Shown: positions 12,567-28,322 of the stretch, piece after piece
Layout of the letters: every line of letters begins with the position of its first letter
Position numbering within the stretch: position 1 is the first letter of the stretch
NCBI GenBank assembly: GCA_947630555.1
Contig: CANRIA010000004.1
Span: 1-64,000, forward strand
From: an uncultured Clostridia bacterium
GTDB taxonomy: Bacteria; Bacillota; Clostridia; Oscillospirales; Ruminococcaceae
DNA: 64,000 nt
Direction of reading: 5' to 3'
Notes under the pieces: generated by a model
The model's database searches: none
What the model was told of the DNA's origin: nothing
What the model saw: the letters and a program-made list of their open reading frames with translations, nothing else
Program-made: the position numbers and the translations under genes

Positions 12567-13820
12567 ATGGAACAGCACGGAATAAGCAAACTTGACCTTA
12601 AAAGACAAAACCGTATGCATGTTTTGAAGATATTGAAACAGAGAGGCCCTACGTCAAGAATAGACATAGCCGGGGCTTTGGAGCTTACGAGAGCAGCGGT
12701 AACTATCATTACGAATGAGATGATAGAGCAGGGAATAATAGTAGAACTTGGTGAATACAAGCAGGTTGCCGAGAAAACGCCGCGCGGCAGAAAAAAGATC
12801 CTTATTGATGTAAACAGCAATTTCAGGTTCACCATAGGCATAGCGATAGAGTGTGAGAATGTAAGTGTTGGTATGTCAACGCTTTCGGGCGCTGTGCTTG
12901 ACAAGAGAAATCTTGCTATAAATGATTCGTTCACATTCGGCGATATTACCGATTTTATCAAAAAGTCGGTAAATGACATAATAAACGACAACTACATAGA
13001 CCCGGGTCAGCTTTTGGGTATAGGCATAGGCGTATATCCCGGTATGTTCAGACGTATGGAGATACCCATAGTAAACGGCGCGGCTGACTATTCGCCGCTG
13101 CGCAAGCTGTTTGAAAAAGAGTATTCTTTGCCTGTGGTGGTAGATAACTCGGTAAAGGGCATGGCTATGGCGAACATAGATTTTCTTAAAGTAAAAGATG
13201 CCGAGCGGAGAAACATTGCATTTTTGCAGTGTGGGGATTCTATGCACTTTGTAGTTACAAATCTTAACGACCCTATTGTTTCTTACGACAACAGAACAGA
13301 CTTTGTTGACAGAATAATAATAGACCCGAAGTCATCGGAAGTGTGCGACTGCGGAAGAAAGGGCTGTTGCAGAACAGAGCTTTCACCAAGCGCGATGATA
13401 AAAAAGGTAACTAGAATATTCGGCATGGAAAAAACGCCGTTTTTGTATAAAACGCTTGGCGGCGATCCTTCAAAGATAGATATGGATTCTATCCGCGATT
13501 CCTGCCGCAACAAAGACGAGGGCACGCTGGCTTTAATGAGCGAGTCGCTTGATATGATGGCGGTGCTGCTTAATAATCTTTACTTTACCACAAATCCGCA
13601 AAAAATAGTGCTGCACAACATTTTTGCAGACGAAGAAAAGATGAATGCATATCTTATACCTGCTGTTGAGCGCATAGGCGGCAGCATTGTGGCAAGCAAG
13701 ATCACACTGAGTATTATAGATGAAAAGCAGAGATTTTTGTCGGGCTGCGCACTTGCGATAAGAGAGCTGTTTTATGACAAGGGCGGCTTTGTTGCCAAAG
13801 CTTCTGTTTCAGCACAATAA
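12567..13820 (+). CDS. ROK-family transcriptional regulator (NagC/XylR-like)
   Basis: N-terminal HTH (LKILKQRGPTSRIDIAGALELTRAAVTIITNEMIEQGII) followed by a ROK domain with CDCGRKGCC zinc motif. Confidence 0.88.
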   Translation: MEQHGISKLDLKRQNRMHVLKILKQRGPTSRIDIAGALELTRAAVTIITNEMIEQGIIVELGEYKQVAEKTPRGRKKILIDVNSNFRFTIGIAIECENVSVGMSTLSGAVLDKRNLAINDSFTFGDITDFIKKSVNDIINDNYIDPGQLLGIGIGVYPGMFRRMEIPIVNGAADYSPLRKLFEKEYSLPVVVDNSVKGMAMANIDFLKVKDAERRNIAFLQCGDSMHFVVTNLNDPIVSYDNRTDFVDRIIIDPKSSEVCDCGRKGCCRTELSPSAMIKKVTRIFGMEKTPFLYKTLGGDPSKIDMDSIRDSCRNKDEGTLALMSESLDMMAVLLNNLYFTTNPQKIVLHNIFADEEKMNAYLIPAVERIGGSIVASKITLSIIDEKQRFLSGCALAIRELFYDKGGFVAKASVSAQ

Positions 13821-13913: not shown

Positions 13914-13947
13914 CAAAGGCACGGCGCATAAAACGCCGTGCCTTTTT
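13914..13947. terminator. Probable (bidirectional) terminator downstream of the miniprotein gene
   Basis: aaggcacggcg-cataaaa-cgccgtgccttttt perfect hairpin. Confidence 0.7.
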
Positions 13948-13958
13948 GGTGTGTGCTG

Positions 13959-14108
13959 TCAGCAGCCGCAGCCGTTGTTGTTGCATCCGCAGCCATTGTC
14001 GCAGCCGCATCCGCAGCCGTTGTTGTAGCCGTTGCTGAATCCGCCGAAAGCGATGATGATTATGAGGATTATTATCCACCAGTAACCGTTGAAGCCGTTG
14101 CAGTTCAT
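13959..14108 (-). CDS. 49-aa membrane-anchored Cys/Gly/Asn-rich miniprotein
   Basis: Reverse translation MNCNGFNGYWWIIILIIIIAFGGFSNGYNNGCGCGCDNGCGCNNNGCGC*, GGAGAA RBS 7 nt upstream of ATG, terminator hairpin just downstream; not in supplied ORF track (below 60 aa). Confidence 0.75.
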   Translation of the reverse strand: MNCNGFNGYWWIIILIIIIAFGGFSNGYNNGCGCGCDNGCGCNNNGCGC

Positions 14109-14402
14109 AAAGAAGTTCTCCTTTGTAATGATTTAAGCCGGCCGTTAAGCGAGGCTTATAGTATAATTTATGCTGATGTGAAAAATGTGTTACAGCGCGG
14201 CGCACTTTTGCCCAAAGTACAGGCGTTTTTGCGCACATCTCAAAAAATAAGGAAAGGAAAATTTGTCCTGCGAATATAATATTTCAGACGGCAAAGCGCT
14301 ATGGCGGAATACTTTATAAATTTCTGCCAAAACTGCTTTTGTGACTTATCCAACTAAGAAAGGAGAACGCCGCCTTACGGCATTTTTGGCGGCAGAGCAA
14401 GT

Positions 14403-16766
14403 ATGTTCAATGAATTCAATACCGACGGCTTTACTAAAAAGGCAAAGGAGATATTAAAACGCTCGCTTGCGCTTGCAGGCAGCATAGGGCACACCTATGT
14501 AGGCAGTGAGCATATACTGTGGGCGATACTGGACGAGGGCTCCAGCACCGCGTGCCTTATTTTAATAAGGTGCGGTCTTACGGCACAAAGGGTGAAAGAC
14601 AAAATAACCGCTGCAATAGGCTCAGGCACGCCCTGCAAATTGACTTACGATGATATAACCCCCACAGCGGAAAAGATACTTGAAAGCGCAAAGGCTATCA
14701 GCACACAGGCAAAAAACAGGCTGGCAGGCAGCGAGCATATTCTTGCCGCAATACTAAAACAAAGCGGCTGCTGCGCCGTGAGCATAATGCGAGATGTTGG
14801 GGTGAATATGCCGCGGCTGTTTTCTGAATGTGCCTTGGGTGCGCGCGAAGATGAGTATTCATCTGCAAAGGGCGGCGCGCAGAAACTTTTGCGATACGCC
14901 AGAGAGCTTACTCGGCAGGACGTTTGCGGCGCGTTCGACCCCGTTATAGGCAGAGAAAAAGAGCTTGAAAGGGTGACTGAAATTCTCTGCCGCCGCAACA
15001 AAAACAACCCCTGCCTTGTGGGCGAGGCAGGGGTAGGCAAGACCGCAATAGTTGAAGGGCTTGCGCAGAGGATATGCGAGGGCAGAGTGCCAAAAGGGCT
15101 TTCAGACAAGCGCATTTTTTCGCTTGATATGACTCAGCTGCTTGCAGGAGCAAAATATCGCGGAGACTTTGAAGAACGCCTAAAACAGTGCGTTGAAGAA
15201 GCCATAGCCGACGGCAACATTATTCTTTTTATAGATGAACTTCATACTATAATGGGCGCAGGCGCGGCAGAGGGAGCTATTGATGCGGCAGGTATAATGA
15301 AGCCTCAGCTGGCAAGAGGTCAGCTTCAGATAATAGGCGCGACGACCTTTGACGAATATCGAAAATATATAGAAAAAGATGCGGCGCTGGAGCGGCGTTT
15401 TCAGCCTGTAAAGGTAGAAGAACCTTCCGAGCAGGCGACTGAGGAAATAATAGAAGGGCTTGTGCCTAGGTATGAAAATTTTCACGGGGTAGAGATAACC
15501 CACGAGGCGGTAAAAAGCGCTGTAAAGCTTTCGGGCAGATATGTTTTTGACAGATATTTTCCCGACAAGGCAATTGACCTTATAGACCAGGCGTGCGCGA
15601 GAGTGCGCATTCGTGAGCAGGAGCGCAGCGAGGAAAAGGCGGTTTCAAAGGCGTTTTCTGACTATATCGTCGGCAGGATAACAAAGCAGGATTATCTTGA
15701 AGCGCTTACTTTGCAGGTGGCAGGCAGCAAAATGAAGCCGCTTATAACTGCGAAGGATATAGCGCAGGTGGTGTCATCGCAAACGGGCATACCTGCTGAA
15801 AGCATGACAGAAAACGAGGGGCACAGGCTGCTGCGGCTGGAAGATGAGCTGAAAAGCGAAGTCATAGGGCAGGACAAGGCGGTATCACTGCTTGCTTCGG
15901 CTATAAGGCGGTCGCGCTCAGGACTGAGAAACGAGCAGCGACCTATAGGTTCATTTGTATTTTTAGGGCCCAGCGGCGTTGGCAAGACAAGTCTGGCAAA
16001 GGCGCTTGCAACGGCTATGTTTTCAAGCTGCGATAGCCTTATACGCTTTGATATGTCAGAATATATGGAGCGGCACAATATTTCTCGGCTGATAGGCTCG
16101 CCGCCGGGGTATGTGGGCTATGAGGAGGGCGGTCAGCTTACCGAGAGGGTAAGGCGCAAGCCGTATTCTATAGTGCTTTTTGACGAGATAGAAAAGGCTC
16201 ACCCCGATGTTTTCAATATTCTTTTGCAGATTTTGGAGGAAGGTTTCGTTACCGATACGAGCGGAAGAAAAGTTTCGTTTGCAAACACCGTTATAATAAT
16301 GACTTCAAACATCGGAGCGAGGGAGACAAAGAGCCATGTGGGCTTTGAAAATTCTTACGAAAAGCAGTCGCAGACCTATTTAGAAGAGATAAAAAAGTTC
16401 TTCTCGCCTGAGCTTCTCAGCCGCATTGACGAAAAAATAATCTTTCAGCCGCTGTCGCACGAGAGCCTGCGCACCATAGCAAACAACATGCTTATGCAGC
16501 TGTGCAGCCGCGCGGCGGATATGAACATCAGGCTGGAATACGGCGAAGATATAGTTGAAAAACTTGCTCAGAGCGGCAGCGGCACTTTCGGCGCAAGAGA
16601 GATACGCCACACCATCTCGGCGCAGCTTGAAAATATGCTTTCAGACTATATTTTAGTAAACGGCACATCAGAAGGCGCAGAAGAAAAAGTGCTGCTGCTC
16701 TCGGTAGGTGAAAACGGCTTTATAGTTGAAGACAAGCGCAAAAAACAAACTCTTGATGCATCATAA
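14403..16766 (+). CDS. ClpC/ClpA-type AAA+ ATPase with short middle region
   Basis: Two Clp-N repeats, two AAA+ modules (GEAGVGKTAIVEGLAQRI; GPSGVGKTSLAKALA), TSNIGAR..., VGF loop; only a short segment between the AAA modules. Confidence 0.92.
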   Translation: MFNEFNTDGFTKKAKEILKRSLALAGSIGHTYVGSEHILWAILDEGSSTACLILIRCGLTAQRVKDKITAAIGSGTPCKLTYDDITPTAEKILESAKAISTQAKNRLAGSEHILAAILKQSGCCAVSIMRDVGVNMPRLFSECALGAREDEYSSAKGGAQKLLRYARELTRQDVCGAFDPVIGREKELERVTEILCRRNKNNPCLVGEAGVGKTAIVEGLAQRICEGRVPKGLSDKRIFSLDMTQLLAGAKYRGDFEERLKQCVEEAIADGNIILFIDELHTIMGAGAAEGAIDAAGIMKPQLARGQLQIIGATTFDEYRKYIEKDAALERRFQPVKVEEPSEQATEEIIEGLVPRYENFHGVEITHEAVKSAVKLSGRYVFDRYFPDKAIDLIDQACARVRIREQERSEEKAVSKAFSDYIVGRITKQDYLEALTLQVAGSKMKPLITAKDIAQVVSSQTGIPAESMTENEGHRLLRLEDELKSEVIGQDKAVSLLASAIRRSRSGLRNEQRPIGSFVFLGPSGVGKTSLAKALATAMFSSCDSLIRFDMSEYMERHNISRLIGSPPGYVGYEEGGQLTERVRRKPYSIVLFDEIEKAHPDVFNILLQILEEGFVTDTSGRKVSFANTVIIMTSNIGARETKSHVGFENSYEKQSQTYLEEIKKFFSPELLSRIDEKIIFQPLSHESLRTIANNMLMQLCSRAADMNIRLEYGEDIVEKLAQSGSGTFGAREIRHTISAQLENMLSDYILVNGTSEGAEEKVLLLSVGENGFIVEDKRKKQTLDAS

Positions 16767-25722: not shown

Positions 25723-28322
<2,600 letters not shown>

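Follow-up and report, generated by a model that had tools for sequence, protein, structure and literature searches.

A putative sigma-K-controlled, Cys-rich miniprotein family in spore-forming Clostridia

Introduction

CsxA of C. sporogenes, CdeC and CdeM of C. difficile, and ExsY and CotY of B. cereus are Cys-rich lattice or coat proteins of spore formers that are under late mother-cell control where this is known, and for which assembly through disulfides has been proposed or shown (PMC7333573). Unrelated Cys-rich spore proteins form disulfide-linked arrays (PMC7333573). The sigma-K regulon of C. difficile is rich in spore-surface proteins, and few Bacillus coat proteins are conserved in Clostridia (PMC3789822), which is why the outer layers of clostridial spores are poorly known.

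Here we describe a Cys-rich miniprotein of 49 amino acids encoded in a 64,000-nucleotide stretch of DNA from an uncultured Clostridia bacterium (the window, the whole stretch that we analyzed). Like the proteins above, it has a high Cys content and is found in spore formers. However, those proteins are larger, whereas the miniprotein and its relatives are mostly 37-70 aa long with one hydrophobic helix, and the two groups have no Pfam or NCBIfam model in common.

Two groups of small proteins are closer in size. FeoB-associated Cys-rich membrane proteins are also small, with an N-terminal hydrophobic helix and a Cys-rich tail, but the miniprotein lacks the positive stretch after the helix and has a sporulation-type promoter. 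It had no Pfam match to that group and no feoB-type neighbor (its neighbors are a ClpC-like ATPase and a ROK-family repressor), and we rejected this assignment. The YjcZ family (PF09680, YjcZ_2) consists of similarly tiny, sporulation-associated proteins of Bacillus, in which a single hydrophobic segment is combined with a terminus rich in Gly, but it differs in the order of its parts and in Cys content. PF09680 matched neither the miniprotein nor 26 diverse relatives and was absent from the genomes of 41 relatives, with a positive control in B. subtilis, and we regard membership in this family as less likely.

Results

Comparison within the genus shows that the open reading frame is a real gene under strong purifying selection. 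A previous inspection of the letters alone (the sequence-only reading) had proposed an open reading frame with a good ribosome-binding site, a hairpin just downstream, and a ClpC-like gene in divergent orientation. On re-check, the coordinates and sequence of the reading frame matched exactly: it has 49 codons on the minus strand and starts with an ATG at 14108.

13959..14108, minus strand: coding sequence of the 49-aa miniprotein (MNCNGFNGYWWIIILIIIIAFGGFSNGYNNGCGCGCDNGCGCNNNGCGC), with a conserved frame and in-frame indels
14118..14124, minus strand: Shine-Dalgarno sequence AAAGGAG; this sequence or AAAAGGAG is present in 8 of 8 aligned loci
13915..13945, minus strand: downstream hairpin, probable terminator

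The Shine-Dalgarno sequence (14124-14118) is 9 nt 5' of the ATG, and it, the start codon and the promoter described below are all conserved in the alignment of upstream regions. The hairpin (stem 13945-13915) had a folding energy of -27.8 kcal/mol, compared to a mean of -13.6 for shuffled sequences (z -5.1), and is probably the terminator of the gene. By eye, other members of the genus have hairpins of altered sequence in the same place. The convergent gene further downstream (12567-13820) encodes the ROK-family repressor.

The miniprotein was 94-100% identical across six genomes of the genus, including its own. A profile search found it in 8 of 10 genomes of the genus, including all six that were at least 90% complete; the two genomes with no strong match were 83% and 88% complete. 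In pairwise comparisons between species of the genus there were 4-8 synonymous and 0-1 nonsynonymous differences (pN/pS 0-0.06), and comparisons to more distant members gave pN/pS of 0.13-0.29. A shorter tail in one congener (G009) was due to loss of whole codons, and indels in the tail were codon-sized. The sequence-only reading had named loss of the frame among close relatives as grounds for discarding the gene; the frame was kept, with no frame-breaking indels. The low complexity of the tail (Gly, Cys, Asn) and an overlapping antisense reading frame of 113 codons might suggest a chance reading frame in low-complexity DNA. This explanation has next to no probability and is refuted by the conservation data: the near-zero pN/pS, the codon-sized indels, the preserved translation and promoter signals, and the presence of family members in dozens of genera.

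The predicted protein has a single short hydrophobic helix and a Cys-rich tail.

14043..14081, minus strand: hydrophobic helix, residues 10-22 (WWIIILIIIIAFG), from the AlphaFold2 model (mean pLDDT of 83 for residues 11-20)
13962..14018, minus strand: Gly/Cys/Asn tail, residues 31-49, with seven Cys; CGC motifs conserved, length variable, pLDDT 45-46

AlphaFold2, using an alignment of 14 rows, predicted one helix, spanning residues 10-22, and no structure in the tail, with a mean pLDDT of 57; the tail is probably disordered in the monomer. Among 31 family members, W11 was invariant and I12-I14 were nearly so. The hydrophobic run was mostly 9-13 residues long in the family, and full crossing of a membrane is uncertain because the run is short (the helix has 13 residues in the window protein). 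The sequence-only reading had placed eight Cys in the tail. The total of eight is correct, but the tail has seven (positions 32, 34, 36, 40, 42, 47, and 49) and the eighth is at position 3.

Members of the family are 22% Gly, 21% Cys (over 67 members), 16% Asn, and less than 1% Lys plus Arg; the window protein has zero Lys and zero Arg. Trypsin-based spore proteomics would therefore miss it. There were approximately 3.5 CxC motifs and 9.8 Cys per protein. The number of Cys was even in 35 of the 67 members and odd in 32, a mixture that is easier to reconcile with cross-links between chains than with a fixed set of pairs within each chain.

The miniprotein belongs to a widespread family that matches no database model. 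Its members have a short Gly/Asn/Cys head, a hydrophobic helix with a W-IIILI core, and a tail with CGC and NN motifs. Within its own bacterial family, a profile of seven members with E values up to 0.1 recovered this layout from 107 of 249 genomes, which represent 67 of 126 genera. Across the class, a profile of 31 members with E values up to 0.01 detected the family in 97 of 389 genomes, representing 64 of 218 genera. The top loci inspected from the seven-member search had a Shine-Dalgarno sequence and start codon, followed by the head, the hydrophobic run, and the CGC/NN-rich tail. About 17 of 20 weaker hits were clear family members by eye, although the filter for open reading frames favors Cys-rich hydrophobic ones and this is not an independent estimate of precision. 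The tail varied greatly in length and Cys spacing, and some members, such as MSERGFVGNEIIWIIVLIILFCCLCGGFRY, lack any tail motif and have just three Cys. Genes occurred as tandem pairs at L058, L060, L063, L064, L066-L070, L074, L075, L114, L117, and L130, and as a fused double miniprotein at L076.

The sequence-only reading had recognized no specific family, and this held: neither Pfam nor NCBIfam had a model matching the window miniprotein or 26 diverse members. PHROGs contained no family for it (PHROG 26875 matched weakly, E 0.0076, over residues 1-24). Searches of phages by tblastn and of plasmids with a Clostridium-like family member gave no hits. For the annotation 'Chorion class high-cysteine' we found no bacterial paper.

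As judged from genome content, the family is restricted to sporulators. Of the 291 genomes in the class sample that have sigma-E/K-class factors, 97 had the family, and none of the 98 genomes lacking such factors had it (Fisher 3.9e-15, with no correction for kinship). In these 98 genomes no match surpassed 1e-40 against the sigma-K model, and every other genome had a match of 1e-60 or stronger; because of this split, we read the 98 as lacking both sigma-E and sigma-K. In bacterial families that contain both kinds of genomes, all eight family-positive genomes were sporulators, with contrasts between sporulators and nonsporulators of 3/3 vs 0/6, 3/6 vs 0/3, 1/1 vs 0/4, and 1/8 vs 0/11. Multiplying the four hypergeometric chances gives, by our own arithmetic, approximately 2e-4. 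The family combines two properties of Cys-rich spore envelope proteins, in that it is rich in Cys and occurs in spore formers only. The proportion of sporulators with the family, about one third, is rough because a short, low-complexity profile detects members incompletely, and it is probably a lower bound. Either some sporulators do without the protein or it has often diverged beyond detection.

The host clade encodes sigma-K. True sigma-K, with the Arg signature GISRSYVSRIE, was found in two genomes of the same genus (G001 and G009), and SpoIVA was found in the genome containing the window and in 56 of the 61 genomes that we examined for it. In the window's own assembly, which is 96.5% complete, we saw sigma-E (GISQSYISRLE) and no open reading frame for sigma-K. 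In three genomes sigE was intact, with sigK cut by a contig edge in one (G008, L089) and no sigK reading frame found in two (G000, L084; G598, L085). These three cases could be due to gaps in the assemblies or to interruption of sigK by a skin-like insertion.

Expression of the miniprotein appears to be controlled by sigma-K in the mother cell. This is the best-supported step of our proposal, and the upstream sequences support it well.

14164..14172, minus strand: -10 element (CATAAATTA) of a sigma-K-type promoter, from the upstream alignment and pattern scans
14186..14193, minus strand: -35 element (GTAACACA), with the core AAC at 14191-14189, from the upstream alignment and the rule that the sigma-K -35 is AC (PMC3789822)

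The promoter reads AACA-N15-CATAAATTA, in agreement with the sigma-K regulon pattern of a CATAnnnTA -10 with the -35 AC approximately 15-17 nt upstream. In the aligned upstream regions, the block GTAACACA-N12/13-CATAnnTTA was kept between genera and its surroundings were not. The pattern [AC]AC[AC]-N15/16-CATAnnn[TA] was present within 150 nt of 46 of 57 unique family genes, compared to a mean of 0.84 and a maximum of 4 of 57 in 300 runs of dinucleotide shuffling. A sigma-E-type ATA -35 was found for one of the 57 genes, and we found no sigma-70 promoter in the region. The second gene of tandem pairs usually had no sigma-K-type promoter, as in an operon.

We also searched 11 genomes with the promoter pattern alone. 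In the genome containing the window there was a single site, that of the miniprotein gene. The search led to new family members in G003 and in G039, which is from another bacterial family; a third new site, in G037, was at the end of a contig, with no family member recognized beside it. A sigma-K-type promoter indicates the mother cell and not the forespore. Of the spore-coat or forespore role that the sequence-only reading had entertained, the association with sporulation and the spore envelope is thus supported, by the promoter and by co-occurrence with the sigma factors, and the forespore is not.

The transcript in the miniprotein's own clade probably begins with a hairpin.

14134..14158, minus strand: hairpin of the mRNA leader at the 5' terminus, with arms TAAGCC (14158-14153) and GGCTTA (14139-14134), from individual folds and covariation

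The stem begins at about the expected +1. Its arms are UAAGCC/GGCUUA here and GAAAC/GUUUC, AAAGC/GCUUU, AAGGC/GCCUU, and others elsewhere in the clade. We flanked an artificial spacer with the arms of ten distinct, hand-picked pairs: 93% of cells paired, 15 cells were doubly changed, and covariation was 0.62, compared to 0.26 when shuffled (reached in 0 of 500 shuffles) and at most 0.15 when slid. This is supportive and not proof, because hand-picked arms favor structure. Family genes elsewhere with a short leader had no hairpin, and Rfam found nothing above chance in the leader. Protection of an mRNA by a hairpin at its 5' end is a known principle, as in the aprE leader of B. subtilis. The leader described here is alike in having its hairpin at the extreme 5' end, but its stem is kept in only part of the family and belongs to no Rfam family. 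By analogy, the hairpin would probably stabilize a transcript from which a high yield of protein is needed late in development.

The divergent neighbor is conserved within the bacterial family.

14403..16766, plus strand: ClpC-like AAA+ ATPase of 787 aa (Clp_N, two AAA modules, ClpB_D2-small), a conserved divergent neighbor with a possible functional link

As previously proposed, the ClpC-like gene starts divergently from the miniprotein gene, and its product has the VGF loop. The two genes are adjacent in 27 distinct genomes from 14 genera of their own bacterial family (26 of these have the divergent arrangement, and in L034 both genes are on one strand), and the ATPases are 46-57% identical outside the genus. 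On the opposite side of the miniprotein gene no neighbor was kept beyond the genus. We did not see the linkage outside the bacterial family, where other genes or tandem pairs were found. The genome has three other Clp ATPases, including one from contig 6 whose gene is a second one of the ClpA/C type. A ClpB-like gene is located at 25768-26001 on the minus strand, approximately 9 kb from the ClpC-like gene. When we looked upstream of the ClpC-like gene for a sporulation promoter, we recognized none.

Discussion

We believe that the miniprotein is best explained as a sigma-K-controlled, mother-cell, membrane-anchored, Cys-rich protein of the spore envelope, with a probability of about 0.66. Its gene would be transcribed in the mother cell, late in spore formation, by the sigma-K form of RNA polymerase. 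A short hydrophobic segment would anchor the protein to a membrane; the likeliest sites are the outer forespore membrane and that side of the forming coat which faces the membrane. The flexible Gly/Asn/Cys tail would be displayed and cross-linked through its Cys, to itself or to other Cys-rich envelope proteins, as the spore surface matures. We infer the structural role from the composition of the protein, the content of the sigma-K regulon, and the analogy to disulfide-linked Cys-rich spore layers; the locations at the membrane and in the envelope, the cross-linking, and the stabilization of the mRNA are likewise readings of the sequence. Counting against the proposal are the window's own assembly, which showed no sigma-K reading frame although two congeners have one, the shortness of the hydrophobic run, and the detection of the family in just about one third of sporulators. 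A broader proposal is that uncatalogued sigma-K-driven, membrane-anchored, Cys-rich miniproteins, often in tandem, form a layer of disulfide-linked protein sandwiched between the coat and the outer forespore membrane throughout the Clostridia, and that proteomics has missed them for their near lack of Lys and Arg. We regard this as tentative, with the odds somewhat against it.

A sporulation protein under sigma-K might instead be a membrane-anchored metal-binding (metallothionein-like) or redox-buffering peptide, in which clustered CxC thiolates bind Zn, Cu, or Fe or scavenge oxidants at the forespore membrane. The many CxC motifs and Cys, with no fixed parity, are consistent with this, as is the presence of feoAB in the C. 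difficile sigma-K regulon, which indicates that metal handling occurs in the mother-cell compartment. However, the number and spacing of CxC motifs are not conserved, the members with three Cys have no tail motif at all, the conserved part is the W-IIILI core and not a metal site, and no metal-transport gene recurs within 1.5 kb. We consider a metal or redox function unlikely. A precursor of a ribosomally made, modified peptide (RiPP), bearing Cys thioethers or comparable modifications and made during sporulation, would also be small and Cys-rich, with a variable tail and a conserved head, and would not be out of place in Clostridia. The sequence-only reading had suggested a modified peptide, but no maturation-class enzyme recurs within 1.5 kb, the conserved part is hydrophobic and is not a leader, and no NCBIfam precursor model matches; neither mark of groups such as the ranthipeptides (SCIFF) was found, and this explanation is very improbable. 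Overall, a RiPP precursor, a metallothionein, and membership in YjcZ are all less likely than a protein of the spore envelope.

The neighboring gene raises the possibility that the miniprotein is a partner, adaptor, or substrate of the ClpC-like ATPase, perhaps a membrane tether or a feeder of substrates during sporulation. Adjacency has persisted despite the divergence of the ATPases and with no other neighbor in common beyond the genus, and the second ClpA/C-type gene means that the copy beside the miniprotein may be specialized. However, the linkage is limited to one bacterial family, the ATPase gene has no recognized sporulation promoter, and shared regulatory DNA could account for the linkage as well as function could. 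We think such a role quite improbable. The ClpC-like neighbor has no obvious place in the spore-envelope model that we prefer.

The family is present in about one third of the sporulating genomes sampled from the class, and the promoter tells when and where its members are made. It could have been missed because the proteins are very short and of low complexity, have almost no tryptic sites, and match no database model. The loci identified here are a short, directly testable list of genes for spore-forming Clostridia.

Several smaller observations concern individual loci. Four loci (L010, L019, L051, and L059) have neighbors of the miniprotein gene in common, one of which resembles 5-formyltetrahydrofolate cyclo-ligase. 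In Clostridium-like genomes with tandem pairs, one protein is of a WFIILFLLLF type and the other of a WIIILIII type. Phylum-wide hits beyond the class were a mixture and were excluded from our counts. Three distant hits (L103, L107, and L108) resemble, by eye, FeoB-associated Cys-rich proteins. Two others (L098 and L099) are very short proteins such as MTNARFDGFGGCWWIIILIIIICCCCGNRRVC, with a WWII-CCCC core and no CGC tail, and are possibly an older form of the family.
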